Source: Candidatus Baldrarchaeum yapensis (GTDB lineage: Archaea > Asgardarchaeota > Baldrarchaeia > Baldrarchaeales > Baldrarchaeaceae). From it: a DNA stretch of 46,425 bases. The DNA lies in assembly GCA_016840465.1 (NCBI GenBank), contig JAEOSH010000013.1, forward strand, positions 1-46,425, in the 5' to 3' direction. Made by a program: the position numbers and the translations under genes. This document shows positions 17,671-24,111 of this stretch, in pieces (the stretch's first letter is position 1; every line of letters begins with the position of its first letter). The notes under the pieces are model-generated. The model made no database searches. It saw only the letters and a list, made by a program, of their open reading frames with translations, and was not told the origin of the DNA.

Positions 17671-19089
17671 TCAAAACGGATGAAGTGGAGTGTTTTTCCT
17701 GATATTCCCGAGGACTTTTAAGTCCACCAAATAAATTCTCTTCTCCTTTAAAATTTCGGCGGCCTCACTACTAACTCCACCTTTATGGAAGATCACGAGC
17801 CGGGAGTGTGGGTACTCATCTAAGTGTTTTTCGAGTTGCTCTATTTTCCTTTTAGGGACATCGGTCCCGAAATAGCATTCACCTAACAGGGTTCTCCCCT
17901 CAAAGTCTATTGCTAAGACATCTATCTGCCCATATCTGCTCTTACCCATCCCAACGTACTTAAAGGGGCCGAGCACTAATTCTCTTCCGAGTGCGTCCTT
18001 AACCCTTATCTGCTTGCCGAGCGCACCGAGCGTTTCCCTAACAAGCGCCTCAAACCCTATTGTAGAAACTCTCTTGAAGAGTTCTATGTCCTTAGCCATC
18101 TGCGGTGTCGTAGTGAACAACACCCATGAGGCGAAGGTTCTGTCCTTCGCAACGTAAAAAACGTTCTTCCTAGATATGAAGACCTTGGATATGAGGTCTC
18201 TCTCGATAAGGTCGGAAAGCATCTGAGGAAGGTCACTTTCACCGATTGTGCTTTCTAGGTCTTCGTACTTCTTCCTGCCGATCGCCAGGTTGTAGATCAC
18301 GAGTCTTTCCGTGGGGTTCAGGTCTTCATAGAGTGAGAAAAAGTACTCGGCGAGTGTTCCTTCCGTGAATTCCATTCTTAAGGCCTCATCGAGGTCTCCG
18401 TAGAGGGCGTACGCTTTTGTTAGGCACTCCACGTAGAACGGAACAAAATCCGCCAGTATGACGATCCTATCCTTCACGTCGTCGGGAATTTTCCATCCGT
18501 ACTCCCGCTCCATCAGCGATATTAGCCCTAGGGAGTTGTTGAAGTCCAAGGGTCCGAGGTTCAGTATGAAGTCAAAAGTTCTGGCTAAGATCCTCGCCTT
18601 TCGAATTATCTTCCTTATCTCCGCAAGGCTACTCGAGGTTGCGATTACCGCCGCCCCGCAATCCATAATGCAACCTCTCAGTACCGCCGCGAAGTTCGTG
18701 ACATTTCCAAATTCCCTCTTCCTTCCCAGCGTCCTGAAGAGATTCGTAAACTCGTCCAGAACGATGACGTTCACGCCACGTTCCGAAACTTCCCTAAAGA
18801 AGTTCTCAAGTGCTGTTTTGTTATCCAGTCGTCCGACATCTACATCTTTCAGGCATAATTCCTCTGCCATCTGTCTCAGAAGATCTGATCCCCGCGTTAC
18901 AGTCGAACAATTTATGTATACCCCTTTGAAACCCTGCCCTTCAACCTCCTCGAGAACTTTTAACGCGAGAACCGACTTCCCTATCCCCCTTCGACCCTTT
19001 ATCAGGATCTTATCACCCCTCGTGATCATCAAGGAGAGTAACTCAAGTTCTCTTTCTCTATTAACAAAATACTTGACCTTCGGTCTCAC
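17671..19089 (-). CDS. Archaeal AAA/STAND-type ATPase with degenerate nuclease-like C-terminal domain
   Basis: The product is 472 aa. It has Walker A GRRGIGKS (residues 32-39) and Walker B VIVLDEF (D112, E113). An I-A-T-S-S-S sensor follows, then a helical/winged-helix region with L-N-P-T-E-R-L-V. The C-terminal domain has G-Q-I-D-V-L-A-I-D followed by L-L-G-E-C-Y-F, shaped like the D...E-x-K core of restriction-type nucleases but with Tyr where Lys is expected. Archaeal ATPases of this MNS/DUF234-like kind are abundant and little understood. The start is GTG 19089: a TATA box (19140-19147, minus strand) and GGGGG support it and exclude the longer frame to 19173. Confidence 0.82.
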   Translation of the reverse strand: MRPKVKYFVNRERELELLSLMITRGDKILIKGRRGIGKSVLALKVLEEVEGQGFKGVYINCSTVTRGSDLLRQMAEELCLKDVDVGRLDNKTALENFFREVSERGVNVIVLDEFTNLFRTLGRKREFGNVTNFAAVLRGCIMDCGAAVIATSSSLAEIRKIIRKARILARTFDFILNLGPLDFNNSLGLISLMEREYGWKIPDDVKDRIVILADFVPFYVECLTKAYALYGDLDEALRMEFTEGTLAEYFFSLYEDLNPTERLVIYNLAIGRKKYEDLESTIGESDLPQMLSDLIERDLISKVFISRKNVFYVAKDRTFASWVLFTTTPQMAKDIELFKRVSTIGFEALVRETLGALGKQIRVKDALGRELVLGPFKYVGMGKSRYGQIDVLAIDFEGRTLLGECYFGTDVPKRKIEQLEKHLDEYPHSRLVIFHKGGVSSEAAEILKEKRIYLVDLKVLGNIRKNTPLHPF

Positions 19090-19359
19090 CCTAATATCCC
19101 CCTTATTAATTGACCGAGAATAACATATCAAATGATAGGTTATAAAATTATAGGTTATCATATCATCTGTCATTATCCAACGATAAAGTTGCGGTCTTCG
19201 GTCACTTCCCGCGGAAACTCATTGATGAAACTCGATTTAGTTTTAGATATCTCCTTTTCTTCCAAGAAAATCTTAGTAAATGGTATTTATGATATTGAAA
19301 ATTGGTGATGATAGATATTGACGCTTTTTCAAGGGCGTGTTTTTTTCACCATCACAACC

Positions 19360-19390
19360 TTTATATCGAATTTTGTTCATATGCACAAAA
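19360..19390 (+). promoter_or_regulatory. TATA box plus inverted-repeat operator of the DUF5320-DtxR-DUF134 operon
   Basis: TTTATAT at 19360-19366 is followed at 19371-19390 by a near-perfect dyad with TTTTGT and ACAAAA arms around CATATG (9 of 10 pairs match). The dyad covers the expected transcription start, the classic place for an archaeal repressor. A closely matching dyad lies in the same place before the NifX-like gene at 22390. Confidence 0.6.
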
Positions 19391-19404
19391 TGGAGGTGAT
19401 ACCC

Positions 19405-19710
19405 ATGTGGTGGGGTGGCGGTCGCGGACGCGGCGGGCACCGATGGAGGTGGATGTTCTACCTTACGGGGCTACCCGGATGGATGAGGTTCGGGTTCTCG
19501 CCCGGATGGGTTGGAAGATCACCGAACGGGCTGCCTCCCTACTTAGCGGGTCGGATGTTTGGATTTCCACAGGTACCATTCCAGCAAATGCAGATGCAGG
19601 GCCTTTCTAAGGAGCAGATGAGGGAGTTTCTCAAGCAACAGCGCGAGATTCTGCGCGCCCAGCTGAGGGAGATAGAGCGCAGGTTGAAGGAGTTGGAAGA
19701 GAGCGAGTGA
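19405..19710 (+). CDS. DUF5320-like protein
   Basis: The product is 101 aa. The N-terminal half is rich in Gly, Arg, Trp and Pro (W-W-G-G-G-R-G-R-G-G). The C-terminal ~35 residues form a charged coiled coil (R-E-I-L-R-A-Q-L-R-E-I-E-R-R-L-K-E-L-E). This matches small archaeal/bacterial DUF5320 proteins, which recur beside NifX-like and Mrp genes. GGAGGTGAT at 19392-19400, a perfect ribosome-binding site, fixes the ATG at 19405. It leads an operon with the DtxR-like and DUF134 genes. A competing +1-frame reading through this region lacks a ribosome-binding site. Confidence 0.75.
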   Translation: MWWGGGRGRGGHRWRWMFYLTGLPGWMRFGFSPGWVGRSPNGLPPYLAGRMFGFPQVPFQQMQMQGLSKEQMREFLKQQREILRAQLREIERRLKELEESE

Positions 19711-19713
19711 TAG

Positions 19714-20109
19714 ATGAAGTACTACGTTTCTATTTGCAGTTTGGAGGACAGTGTTAGGAGGTTGCTCGCGCTAGGAGGCCACGTACGTTTCGTGAAGCTT
19801 GTCGAGTTTTCGAAATCTGCAAATCTTCCGCTATCCTCCGCTTTTCAGATTTTTAGGAAACTTCACGAGTTGGGACTCGCGAGGTACGTACCCCGGAAGG
19901 GTATAATGCTCACGGAGCACGGTATAAGGCTCGGGGTTTCGCTCCTCAAGAAACTTATCCTTACAAAAACGTTCCTAGTGTGTGCACTGGGGCTCGACGA
20001 GGAGGCCGCGGAGAGGGAGGCATGCACCTTAGAACATTATATAAATGAGCACGTCCTTACAAGGATAATAGAGTTCCTGAGGAACCACCATCTTCGGCAG
20101 ATTGCGTGA
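19714..20109 (+). CDS. DtxR/MntR-family metal-dependent regulator
   Basis: The product is 131 aa. The N-terminal winged helix (~10-60) carries S-S-A-F-Q-I-F-R-K-L-H-E-L-G-L. Then come L-T-E-H-G-I-R-L and the signature of the DtxR dimerisation/metal domain, L-G-L-D-E-E-A-A-E-R-E-A-C-T-L-E-H-Y-I. It has no C-terminal SH3/FeoA domain, so it is the short two-domain form. Members sense Fe2+ or Mn2+ and repress uptake or homeostasis genes. The ATG is 4 bases after the upstream stop. It is a prime candidate for binding the dyads at 19371 and 22349. Confidence 0.82.
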   Translation: MKYYVSICSLEDSVRRLLALGGHVRFVKLVEFSKSANLPLSSAFQIFRKLHELGLARYVPRKGIMLTEHGIRLGVSLLKKLILTKTFLVCALGLDEEAAEREACTLEHYINEHVLTRIIEFLRNHHLRQIA

Positions 20110-20150
20110 CACGGATCATTTTAACGACAATTACAATGGGAGGTTTGCCG

Positions 20151-20576
20151 ATGCCGCAGCACAGGCACAGATGGGGATGGAGAAGACGCGGCGAAATGCC
20201 GGAGGCTAGGGGCCCAGGGAGACCTCCAAAGCCGAGAGTTATCACCGCGCTCCCCACTGTTGCAAAGTTCTCACCCACTCTTCAGGAGAACGTTCCGGTC
20301 CAGCCAAAACCGCCCATTTTCCTGTCATATGATGAGTACGAGGCCCTCAGGTTGATAGATTACGAGGGCTTGACTCAAGAGGAAGCGGGGGAGAGAATGG
20401 GCGTGTCCAGGGGGACAATATGGCGCCTTATAAAGAGCGCCCGCAAGAAGGTGTCCTCCGCGCTGATAGAAGGGCGAGAACTGGTGATCGTTCCACAGGC
20501 CCCCATAATCCTAGAGGAGAAGTGTGAGAAGGAGGAAGTGCGTGAAGAGGTGAAGGAAGAGATAATACGCGGCTAA
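20151..20576 (+). CDS. DUF134 family DNA-binding protein
   Basis: The product is 141 aa. The basic, Pro-rich N terminus (R-G-P-G-R-P-P-K-P-R) is followed by L-S-Y-D-E-Y-E-A-L-R-L-I-D-Y-E-G-L-T-Q-E-E-A-G-E-R-M-G, then V-S-R-G-T-I-W-R-L as the recognition helix. This is a sigma-70-region-4-like helix-turn-helix typical of DUF134. The tail is acidic. DUF134 genes often lie next to NifX-like and Mrp genes and are assumed to regulate them. GGGAGGT at 20138-20144 fixes the ATG at 20151. It is the third gene of the operon starting at 19405. Confidence 0.88.
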   Translation: MPQHRHRWGWRRRGEMPEARGPGRPPKPRVITALPTVAKFSPTLQENVPVQPKPPIFLSYDEYEALRLIDYEGLTQEEAGERMGVSRGTIWRLIKSARKKVSSALIEGRELVIVPQAPIILEEKCEKEEVREEVKEEIIRG

Positions 20577-20581
20577 TAGCG

Positions 20582-21187
20582 TCATACGGATACTAAGGTT
20601 TTTAGTTCCTCGAGTGATCTTATTACCGGGGCTGAAACCTCCTCTTCCCGGCTCTCGCTCCTCCTGATTATGAACACCCGGCAACCAATCTCCCTTCCGG
20701 CTCTTGCGTCGTTCTCCCTGTCTCCGACGAATACCGCCTCCGAGGGCTCCACTTCCAGCATCTCGAGAACTCTTTGTAGCTGTACTTCTCTGAAAATAGA
20801 GTACTCGCGCGTGACGACGTTCTCCTCTCCGAAGAACTCTCCGAGTTGTGACATTGATAGGATTCTTCTGACGACCTTCCGCCCTTGAAGTGTAACGAGT
20901 GCAAGTTTTGCGCCTTTCCTGTCAAAATGCCTCAATACACCTATGGTATCGGGAAAGATCCTGACATTCTCCACCGCTCTCAACTCTTCCTCGTCCAATA
21001 TGCTTAAGACTCTCCTGTACATCTCAATGTTTCCCTCCCTCAAGAGTCCTACCAAGGTTCCGAAAATTGACGTTACATGCCGCCCCAACTCCTTCGAGAG
21101 GCGTATCTTCAGCAGGGAATAATTAACCGGCAACGCAAGCAACGTGCCGTCCATGTCGAAGATGAGTGCCTTCACTTTCACTTCCAC
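20582..21187 (-). CDS. HAD-superfamily phosphatase
   Basis: The product is 201 aa from GTG 21187. D-M-D-G-T-L (motif I, nucleophile Asp), L-V-T-L-Q-G (motif II), a Lys/Arg region and F-V-G-D-R-E-N-D (motif IV) are all present, with a helical cap between I and II. It resembles phosphoglycolate-phosphatase-type HADs; the substrate is unknown. A TATA box on the minus strand at 21231-21240 and GGAGAGG just upstream support GTG 21187 over the longer frame to 21262. GTG 21181 and 21175 are alternatives. The gene converges with the DUF134 operon, with 5 bases between stops. Confidence 0.85.
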   Translation of the reverse strand: MEVKVKALIFDMDGTLLALPVNYSLLKIRLSKELGRHVTSIFGTLVGLLREGNIEMYRRVLSILDEEELRAVENVRIFPDTIGVLRHFDRKGAKLALVTLQGRKVVRRILSMSQLGEFFGEENVVTREYSIFREVQLQRVLEMLEVEPSEAVFVGDRENDARAGREIGCRVFIIRRSESREEEVSAPVIRSLEELKTLVSV

Positions 21188-21390
21188 TTCCTCTCCTTTC
21201 CGAATGTTCAGGTTAAAGATGAGGACGAAATTATAAAATTTAGTGGGCAACCGCGAAGGCAAGGGTGTTTATAAAATTTGTTCGGAGAAAATAGAAATGA
21301 GATGTACAATGGGATTTTTGAAAGTGAAAGCACTTATATGGAACACATTTAAACTGGGATCGCGTCTTAGAGTTCGGTGCGGTGCGTACA

Positions 21391-22176
21391 ATGAGGACCT
21401 TTTATCGCCATGTGCTTAACATAATAGGCATACTGACCGTCGTATGGGTACTGTTGTTCCTGATAGTGCTGATACCCGTAAAGATTCTTGTCGTACCAAT
21501 ATCTGTTCCGAGAGACGTGCCCCATGCGGCATTGATCGAAGCTCTGCTCCAGTTAGCGCTCACCGGAGTTTTCGGGATAATATGGCTCGTAATATGGTAC
21601 TTCCTCATAAGGTGGTACTTCAACTACTCTCTCAGAAAACAGTACGGGAATATGCGGTCTCAAACCACCAACGGGGGTTCGGCGCAGAACTACAGCGAAA
21701 TAGTATACAGACCCATCGGGATCATCCACACCCCCTTCAAGGAACCGCGTGGGGTTCCGATACAGCCAAAGTATGCTAAGGGCATCAGGGGGACAGTTGA
21801 AGTATTCCCCGAATATGCGGAGGGCCTCCAAGACATTGAGGGCTTTTCCCACATAATTCTGATCTACCACTTCCACCTTGCGAAGAGGAAATCCCTTAAG
21901 GTAGTTCCGTTTCTTGATACAAAGCCACGTGGGATATTTGCGACGCGCGCACCTAGACGTCCTAACCCTATTGGAGTATCCGTAGTACGCCTTCTCAAGG
22001 TCGAGGGCAATATTCTCCATGTGGAAAACGTCGATATAGTGGACGGAACACCACTCCTCGATATAAAACCGTATGTCCCTGAATTTGACGCGGCGGAGAA
22101 TGTGAGGATAGGATGGCTGGAGGAAAGAGTGAAGCGTGGACGCCTCGCGAGAGACGACGGTAGGTTCATGAGGTGA
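21391..22176 (+). CDS. trmO: TrmO/TsaA tRNA-A37 methyltransferase domain fused to an N-terminal membrane hairpin
   Basis: The product is 261 aa from ATG 21391. Residues ~10-90 contain two or three hydrophobic helices. From ~105 onward it is a complete TrmO (TsaA/VirR) domain: Y-R-P-I-G-I-I-H-T-P-F, I-I-L-I-Y-H-F-H, R-A-P-R-R-P-N-P-I-G-V-S and I-V-D-G-T-P-L-L-D-I-K-P-Y. TrmO uses SAM to N6-methylate t6A37 of certain tRNAs. TrmO proteins are normally soluble, so the membrane extension is odd. An internal ATG near 21652 could give a soluble form. GTG 21382 is also in frame. Confidence 0.85.
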   Translation: MRTFYRHVLNIIGILTVVWVLLFLIVLIPVKILVVPISVPRDVPHAALIEALLQLALTGVFGIIWLVIWYFLIRWYFNYSLRKQYGNMRSQTTNGGSAQNYSEIVYRPIGIIHTPFKEPRGVPIQPKYAKGIRGTVEVFPEYAEGLQDIEGFSHIILIYHFHLAKRKSLKVVPFLDTKPRGIFATRAPRRPNPIGVSVVRLLKVEGNILHVENVDIVDGTPLLDIKPYVPEFDAAENVRIGWLEERVKRGRLARDDGRFMR

Positions 22177-22340
22177 CGATAATAAACGATAGTGTGGTAC
22201 ATTTTAGGGGTATTTACCTAGTTCTGGCAGATTTGCAGATTATCGAGCGGATGTCTTTTGCATCGATGTAATAGGGGGATGCCATACGCTCCGGTCGCGA
22301 AAACATCGGTGGTATGCCGTCACCGTCCCGATCAGATACT

Positions 22341-22366
22341 CTTTTAAAATTGTGCATAGACACAAT
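22341..22366 (+). promoter_or_regulatory. TATA-like element plus inverted-repeat operator of the NifX-like/Mrp operon
   Basis: CTTTTAAAA at 22341-22349 is overlapped by a dyad at 22349-22366 with perfect 6-base arms ATTGTG and CACAAT around CATAGA. The 16-base core matches the dyad at 19373-19388 at 13 of 16 positions, with identical arm spacing and the same placement between TATA box and start point. Confidence 0.6.
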
Positions 22367-22389
22367 ATCGTGCACGGGAGGTGCTACTA

Positions 22390-22803
22390 ATGCCACGGAT
22401 ACTAATACCCACGGAGGCACCCGGCGGTCTTGATGCTCCGGTTTCTCAGCACTTTGGCAGAGCGGAAACTTTTACAATCGTGGATGTGGAAGATGGAAAA
22501 ATAGTGCATGTTGAGGTTGTGGATAACAGGGGAATGCACTTCGGCGGAGGCGGACGTGCCGTACAGGTGGCACTTTCAGTGGGCGCCGATATCGTCATAA
22601 GCAGGGGGCTCGGAATCCGCGCCCTCTTCTTTCTGAAGAACATGGGGATAACAGTATTAACCGGAAACTTCAATACGGTTAGGGAGGCAATCTCCGCCTA
22701 CCTCAGGGGTGACCTCAGGTCCATGGAGGAAGAAGATGTCTGTATGGGTGGCCATCACCGGTCAGGTTTTTGTGATAGAGGATTCCCTCCGTTTCCATAT
22801 TAA
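22390..22803 (+). CDS. NifX/NifB-type dinitrogenase iron-molybdenum cofactor domain protein
   Basis: The product is 137 aa. The single domain shows P-V-S-Q-H-F-G-R-A-E-T-F-T-I-V-D, G-A-D-I-V-I-S-R-G-L-G and A-I-S-A-Y-L-R-G, the pattern of the NifX/NafY superfamily that carries Fe-S or metal clusters. Outside nitrogen fixers these are stand-alone Fe-S cluster or metal carriers. A Cys/His-rich tail (V-C-M-G-G-H-H ... F-C) could bind metal. GGGAGGTG at 22376-22383 fixes the ATG at 22390. It is followed 15 bases later by the Mrp ATPase gene, a widespread pairing. Confidence 0.9.
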   Translation: MPRILIPTEAPGGLDAPVSQHFGRAETFTIVDVEDGKIVHVEVVDNRGMHFGGGGRAVQVALSVGADIVISRGLGIRALFFLKNMGITVLTGNFNTVREAISAYLRGDLRSMEEEDVCMGGHHRSGFCDRGFPPFPY

Positions 22804-22818
22804 AAGTCGAAGGGGGTT

Positions 22819-23718
22819 GTGAAAACGGCGGAGAAACCGAATAAGGAACAGGTTGGGAGCGCCGCGCCGGAAAAAGCGCATCCTAAGATAAAGTACGTTA
22901 AGGGGCGAATTATCGTCGAGAATGAGAAAATAATGAAGAACATGGAGAGGATAAAGCACCCCATTGCGATAATGTCCGGAAAGGGCGGGGTCGGGAAGAC
23001 CACGGTCGCCGTGAATCTCGCAATAGCGCTTGCGTGGAGGGGTTATGTTACTGGAATTCTGGATGCCGATATTCACGGGCCCGATGTTCCAAAGATGATG
23101 GGGCTCGAGGGACAGAGACCGGTCGCGGTTCCGAACGGAATACTCCCAGTTTTCGGGCCACTTAACATAAAGGTAATGTCCATGGAGTTCCTCCTGGAAA
23201 AGCCCGACGTGCCAATAATATGGCGTGGACCACTGAAGATGCGCGCAATCGAGCAGTTCCTATCCGATGTTATCTGGGGCGACTTGGATTTCCTAATAAT
23301 AGACCTGCCGCCGGGAACCGGTGACGAACCCCTTTCTATAATGCAACTCATACCTAACCTCGAGGGCGTGATCATAGTGACCACCCCTCAGGAGGTCGCC
23401 CTCCTCGACGTGAGCAAGGCGATAATGATGGCAAAGCGCCTGAACGTCCGAGTGCTGGGTGTCATAGAGAACATGGCCGGTTTCGTGTGCCCTCATTGTG
23501 GAAAGAAGACTAACATATTCGGTTACGGTGGGGGAGAAAATGCAGCAAAGGAGTACAACATACCGTTCCTCGGAAGACTGCCCTTAGATCCACGGATAAT
23601 GTCGGTATCGGATAGGGGGCGCCCGTTCATAATAGAGAACCCGGATAGTGAGGCCTCGAAGGCGTTCATGGAGATTGTTAAGAACATAGAAAAAGAAGTG
23701 GGCGAACTATCGCAGTGA
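22819..23718 (+). CDS. mrp: Mrp/NBP35-type Fe-S cluster carrier ATPase
   Basis: The product is 299 aa. It contains the deviant Walker [29 protein letters not shown] and the C-P-H-C pair near residue 218 that bridges an Fe-S cluster at the dimer interface. The first ~45 residues are a charged extension. Mrp/ApbC proteins transfer [4Fe-4S] clusters to apo-proteins. The GTG at 22819 follows AGGGGG closely; a slightly different start is possible. It forms an operon with the NifX-like gene, under the dyad at 22349. Confidence 0.93.
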
Positions 23719-24111
23719 TTTCTCGTATAGATGGGTAACATAACACTCATTTTTACTCTTTATGAAGTTCCGTGTACTTGCCAATTTTTGTTTTACAGGT
23801 GCCCTTCCTGACATCCGGAGATTATTTCGGAAAAATGATTTAAAATTTGTAATTCCCAAAATGATTCTCCTTGAGTCATCTGCCTTATTTTCTAATTTTT
23901 CTAAACAGAGCATAGTCCCTTTCTTAATGCACTCTTTCATATTATCTGTTAATTGCCGTAACGAGGTTCCACATGACACCTTTTAGCTTAGTGAGACGGC
24001 ATCGTCAGGAATTCGATGAAGCGTGTTGCTTTGGTCAGGTTTACTGGGCCTTACATTTTAAAGCCTTAAGACGATCTTGCATATTGCATGCAAATGTCCT
24101 AAGACGTATGA
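23719..24111. other. Intergenic region without a convincing gene
   Basis: Overlapping short frames on both strands (minus 23707-23979, plus 23762-23986) have no recognisable motif and no ribosome-binding site, and neither is preferred. A 10-base palindrome TTGCATGCAA lies at 24084-24093. Confidence 0.35.

Follow-up and report, generated by a model that had tools for sequence, protein, structure and literature searches.

A 16-bp palindrome at iron–sulfur operon promoters as a predicted DUF134 operator in archaea and bacteria

Two promoters on contig JAEOSH010000013.1 of Candidatus Baldrarchaeum yapensis (46,425 nt, all of which was analysed and is hereafter called the window) carry nearly the same 16-bp palindrome, which raises the question of which protein reads this element and with what effect. 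An earlier note, made from the DNA letters of the window, had described the pair, had assigned it to a DUF5320-DtxR-DUF134 operon and a NifX-like-Mrp operon, and had proposed that either the DtxR-type regulator or DUF134 represses these operons as one metal/iron–sulfur (Fe–S) regulon. Judging from comparative sequence evidence, it is very probable that DUF134 proteins of one recognition-helix class, SRGT, bind the palindrome TTGTGCATATGCACAA and repress their own and Fe–S operons, with iron or sulfide as a possible releasing signal. The elements of the two promoters are as follows.

19360–19367, forward strand: TATA-like element of promoter 1, TTTATATC, by direct reading; archaeal sites elsewhere also adjoin TATA-like elements
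19373–19388, forward strand: operator 1, TTGTTCATATGCACAA, 17 bp 5′ of the DUF5320 start
22342–22349, forward strand: TATA-like element of promoter 2, TTTTAAAA, by direct reading
22350–22365, forward strand: operator 2, TTGTGCATAGACACAA, 24 bp 5′ of the NifX-like start

Operators 1 and 2 are identical at 13 of 16 positions in a direct comparison. The consensus TTGTGCATATGCACAA, a 16-bp palindrome, was derived later from other genomes, and with up to three mismatches it matches the whole window exactly twice, at operators 1 and 2, against a shuffled-window expectation of 0.03; none of 100 shuffles reached two matches. The palindrome pair is thus confirmed by direct reading and by the shuffle test, and the pattern written in the earlier note gives six matches in the window against 1.6 expected. 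A TATA-like element lies a few bases upstream of each operator, and the start codon follows the operator at a distance of 17 to 24 bases. The TATA elements are therefore placed just upstream as had been claimed, but the sites do not lie exactly over the start point; they lie between the TATA element and the expected start.

The palindrome is rare in the remainder of the genome. A search of the 2.27 Mb assembly with at most one mismatch to the pattern found only one other site, TTGTGCAAATGCACAA on contig C3, directly 5′ of an operon DUF5320-NifX-NifX-MinD-MinD, in which both MinD ATPases carry ferredoxin domains and NifXb combines a Nitro_FeMo-Co domain with a cationic glycine-rich C-terminus, sequence features of IssA-type proteins. 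A weight matrix trained without the window's order ranked the window operators first and third genome-wide and C3:10702 second, all three at 22–26 bits; in 20 Mb of simulated sequence, every score stayed below 18. The next-ranked site, a hybrid palindrome TTGAGCATATGCTCAA on contig C12 (63033–63048), lies 3′ of a TATA-like element and 5′ of a metallo-beta-lactamase-fold gene, which is a possible fourth target because homologues of its product recur near DUF134/NifX clusters. The genome scan that the earlier note had called for thus finds a motif that is not randomly placed and is rare outside the linked operon promoters.

Beyond this genome, the site recurs directly 5′ of DUF134, NifX/IssA-like, MinD, Mrp or DUF5320 genes in several phyla. 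Across 228 genomes of the Asgard phylum, a search that allowed up to one mismatch found 28 sites, as opposed to 7 for the reversed palindrome. Of the 24 genomes with a site, 17 have target genes directly 3′ of it, the remaining 7 being close to the chance level; the site-bearing relatives include Thorarchaeota and Hermodarchaeota. In almost every relative looked at, the DUF134 gene has NifX, MinD, Mrp or DUF5320 genes as neighbours. An exact 16-mer scan over 84,980 species genomes returned at least 117 stretches. Among the matches listed, DUF134/NifX/MinD/Mrp genes lie beside the site in 24 of 117, and the lineages comprise Thermococci, Bathyarchaeota, Geoarchaeota, Desulfobacterota, Bacillota, Spirochaetes, Brachyspira, Melioribacteraceae, Fibrobacter and others. 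In a sample of Thermococci, one to three sites were present in 60 of 81 genomes, while the reversed control matched in one; all 60 site-bearing genomes contain DUF134, and the 20 DUF134 proteins retrieved from Thermococci all read SRGTVWR. Conservation 5′ of orthologous operons, proposed earlier as a check, is therefore found in Asgard genomes, in the wider scan and in Thermococci.

The genes of the two window operons, whose content (DUF5320-DtxR-DUF134 and NifX-like-Mrp) agrees by Pfam with the earlier description, albeit with a weak DUF5320 match, are listed here.

19405–19710, forward strand: DUF5320-like small protein with a Gly/Arg/Trp-rich N-terminus and a helical C-terminus (PF17253, E = 2e-4, under the Pfam cut-off)
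19714–20109, forward strand: short DtxR-like protein of 131 amino acids, matched by Pfam in the dimerisation/metal domain only (PF02742, Fe_dep_repr_C, E = 6e-13)
20151–20576, forward strand: DUF134/UPF0251 protein, the proposed operator binder (PF02001, E = 3e-24; AlphaFold2 (AF2) model with a sigma-region-4-like helix-turn-helix (HTH))
20406–20426, forward strand: SRGTIWR, the start of the DUF134 recognition helix, which defines the operator class (alignment, AF2 model, class association)
22390–22803, forward strand: NifX-like (Nitro_FeMo-Co) protein (PF02579, E = 1e-18)
22819–23718, forward strand: Mrp/NUBPL Fe–S carrier ATPase (PF10609, E = 2e-103)

With 86 bits to PF02001 against a curated cut-off of 27, the window DUF134 protein is a clear family member. 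It contains the S-x-x-T recognition helix (SRGTIWR), and the AF2 model places helices at residues 76–83 and 87–107 in a block with a predicted local distance difference test score (pLDDT) above 90, with SRGT at the beginning of the recognition helix 87–107. Searches of the PDB with DUF134, by sequence and by fold, gave HTH matches only, mostly to sigma region 4, none of them significant by fold E-value.

The identity of this helix correlates with the operator sequence. Among loci sampled by family membership, without regard to the motif, a site was found within 1.5 kb of the gene for 15 of 24 SRGT-class DUF134 proteins versus none of 56 with other helices (Fisher p = 2e-10, a value inflated by relatedness). 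A second operator class, TTATGA-N8-TCATAA (probe form TTATGAGCATATGCTCATAA), shows the reverse distribution, being near 22 of 55 non-SRGT genes and none of 24 SRGT genes, while shuffled half-sites gave 0.9 of 80; it lies mostly 20–47 bp 5′ of the non-SRGT DUF134 start in Asgard genomes and Desulfobacterota. A core, GCATATGC, is common to both operator types in bacterial examples. No clear common palindrome was found for the long Bacillota DUF134 class, and the TTATGA code is therefore claimed for Asgard and Desulfobacterota only. The helix-class prediction was upheld in a fresh Bacillota sample, where the first operator occurs at the gene start in three of three SRGT genes as opposed to one of 27 others, with one hybrid site in addition. 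A further comparison of 55 loci with shuffled palindromes (17 versus 0.7) is not used as evidence since some of these loci were picked by motif. The case for direct binding by DUF134 draws its greatest strength from this correlation between helix and operator, and, together with co-occurrence, the evidence favours DUF134 as the operator binder.

Several observations weigh against this assignment. The counts for the class association include related sequences, and the Fisher test is uncorrected for kinship. About one third of the SRGT genes have no recognisable site within 1.5 kb, and in three such cases (L045, L046, L059) the site is farther away or on another contig. One SRAT-class DUF134 protein also carries the first operator. 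Three Thermococci metagenome-assembled genomes (MAGs) and one Desulfuromusa MAG contain sites and no clear DUF134; these MAGs may be incomplete, or their sites may be bound by another factor. In the sister genus, the DUF134 gene itself lacks a site, and direct autoregulation of DUF134 is accordingly predicted for the window and for many bacteria but not for that genus.

The position of the site bears on how DUF134 would act. In 66 contexts the site adjoins a TATA element or a −10 element: in archaea it stands beside the TATA box, mostly just downstream, and in bacteria it overlaps the −10 element of promoters with a good TTGACA. The bacterial sites sit on TTGACA/TATATT-like promoters, and the window promoters are of the archaeal TATA type, unlike the sigma54 promoters with activator sites that mark ORP-type regulation (sigma54 plus OrpR). 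A site between TATA and start, or on the −10 element, suits a repressor. From the computed conservation, position, target genes and helix-class association of the site, we infer a mechanism in which DUF134 would be a small transcription factor with a sigma-region-4-like HTH as its core. Its SRGT class, the window protein included, would bind the 16-bp palindrome directly, presumably as a dimer, and would block assembly of the transcription machinery at the core promoter. At least three operons would be repressed in this genome, namely DUF5320-DtxR-DUF134, NifX-Mrp and, on the other contig, DUF5320-NifX-NifX-MinD-MinD, with the metallo-beta-lactamase-fold gene as a possible further target, and plentiful iron or sulfide would probably lift the repression so that Fe–S storage and carrier proteins are made. 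The earlier idea of a single regulator that represses one metal/Fe–S regulon and, through the DUF134 operon, itself is supported in that the sites are non-random and conserved before orthologous operons.

An alternative in which DUF134 binds the site as an activator, or as a sigma-like factor recruiting RNA polymerase, draws on the resemblance of its fold to sigma region 4, the reader of the −35 element. This alternative is unlikely, however, as the sites are placed 3′ of the TATA box or on the −10 element, where binding blocks instead of recruiting, the bacterial target promoters retain their own TTGACA −35 element, and DUF134 has no other sigma regions.

It is very unlikely that the site is bound by an unlinked factor, e.g., a Tfx-like sigma-region-4 protein, with DUF134 as no more than a co-conserved neighbour. 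The few MAGs that have sites and no detectable DUF134, those of Thermococci encoding a weakly similar protein of 131–136 amino acids, would fit such a factor, but the operator sequence shifts with the DUF134 recognition-helix class, the shared loci yielded no DNA-binding protein other than DUF134, and DUF134 accompanies the site in every site-bearing genome of the Thermococci sample. In the Thermococci MAGs G240, G241 and G242 (loci L098, L122 and L124), the site lies 5′ of NifX genes, and only this weak sigma-region-4-like protein was seen in place of a clear DUF134.

That the window DtxR-like protein acts on the palindrome as a metal-dependent repressor is hardly credible: its gene does lie in operon 1, it retains the DtxR dimerisation domain and its orthologue in the sister genus also adjoins a site, but no DtxR-like gene was detected in any of the 24 target loci among the matches listed in the 84,980-species scan, the Asgard site loci have one only within the window's own order, to which a true orthologue (~41%) is also confined among 21 genomes searched, and the palindrome does not resemble the DtxR-type box TTAGGnnnnCCTAA, a distinct element in Thermococci. 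This box does not occur at 19000–24000 of the window, and its count in the whole window is not above chance. Of the two binders named by the earlier note, DUF134 is thus retained through co-occurrence and helix class, whereas DtxR is set aside by its absence from nearly all site-bearing loci; the window DtxR-like protein is a passenger in one lineage.

With DUF134 as the predicted repressor, the genes under its sites bear on the signal. The site-controlled genes encode carriers of the MinD and Mrp type as well as NifX/IssA-like proteins whose tails are rich in glycine and arginine; in Thermococci, a cation efflux transporter is also among the products. Many Thermococci targets combine the Nitro_FeMo-Co domain with a cationic glycine-rich C-terminus, as judged by sequence features. 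A cation diffusion facilitator (Pfam Cation_efflux) starts right after the site at Thermococci locus L389 (1529–2389) and also at L379, L386, L387 and L397, by which metal export joins the Thermococci regulon. In Pyrococcus furiosus with sufficient iron, IssA is induced by sulfide (PMC5524996). From the controlled genes, there is about an even chance that iron or sulfide sufficiency is the signal. Sensing by a NifX-type domain is plausible because DUF134-Nitro_FeMo-Co fusions occur in bacterial genomes (L252, L260, L249, L278). Locus L261 encodes a DUF134-DUF5320 fusion, and at L267 DUF134 is fused to a weakly matching heavy-metal domain.

In Thermococci, a DtxR-type box TTAGGnnnnCC[TG]AA lies within 50 bp of 16 of 30 sites versus 19 of 600 random windows, which suggests double control, with an iron signal entering via a second regulator besides DUF134. 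At L370–L375 and other Thermococci loci, such a box accompanies the DUF134 operator at operons for MinD and IssA-like proteins. DtxR-like palindromes, TTTAGGTTTACCTAAA and TTTAGGGATGCCTAAA, were also seen 5′ of the NifX operon, upstream of NifXb, in two Asgard genomes (loci L047 and L049).

Among known systems, the UPF0251/DUF134 family (PF02001), whose sigma-region-4-like HTH the window protein shares, here gains a proposed target and a class-specific operator code. The literature searched, outside which lay much subscription literature and the regulon databases, held no function or DNA target for DUF134/UPF0251; the operator strings themselves gave matches only in unrelated subjects and no paper in this context. 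A prior DUF134 prediction elsewhere is possible. The operons of the ORP complex in Desulfovibrio vulgaris have a related gene set, with the NifX-like Orp8, the MinD-ferredoxin proteins Orp3/Orp4 and the Mrp-type Orp9, but they are controlled by a sigma54-dependent promoter and a cognate regulator (PMC6345978), in contrast to the ordinary TATA or sigma70 promoters with a palindromic predicted DUF134 site described here. The thioferrate storage protein IssA/SipA of Pyrococcus furiosus belongs to the Nitro_FeMo-Co proteins and has a C-terminal tail rich in glycine, and no regulator is named in the accessible part of that account (PMC5524996); the Thermococci sites precede IssA-like genes with such tails, likened by domain and tail. 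The DtxR/IdeR family is represented by the DtxR-like protein of operon 1 and by the boxes beside the Thermococci site, but it differs in operator sequence and is missing from nearly all site-bearing loci.

It is somewhat probable that DUF134 is more generally a repressor family of archaea and bacteria, in which helix classes read different but related palindromes with the common core GCATATGC and one class runs a conserved Fe–S storage and delivery regulon (IssA-like, MinD, Mrp, cation efflux) from equivalent core-promoter positions, whether the transcription machinery is archaeal or bacterial. DUF134 is widespread in anaerobes, and a 16-bp predicted target, a helix-operator correlation and a gene set make it a testable regulator. 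For anaerobes, it is also a candidate regulator of the genes for Fe–S storage and delivery, among them those for IssA-like proteins, whose relative in Pyrococcus responds to sulfide and iron. One operator under archaeal and bacterial promoters is, moreover, a useful case of regulators crossing domains.

Among the products of the target operons, the window NifX has a short tail and lacks the cationic glycine-rich C-terminus of the IssA type. The DUF5320 proteins (window 19405–19450; L044 9215–9736 and 10325–10717) have a Gly/Arg/Trp-rich start that resembles the cationic glycine-rich IssA-like tail, and DUF5320 might be a related Fe–S particle component. Adjoining the C3 NifX operon, divergently oriented genes (L044 11060–13000) resemble an energy-coupling-factor nickel/cobalt transporter, as judged by eye.
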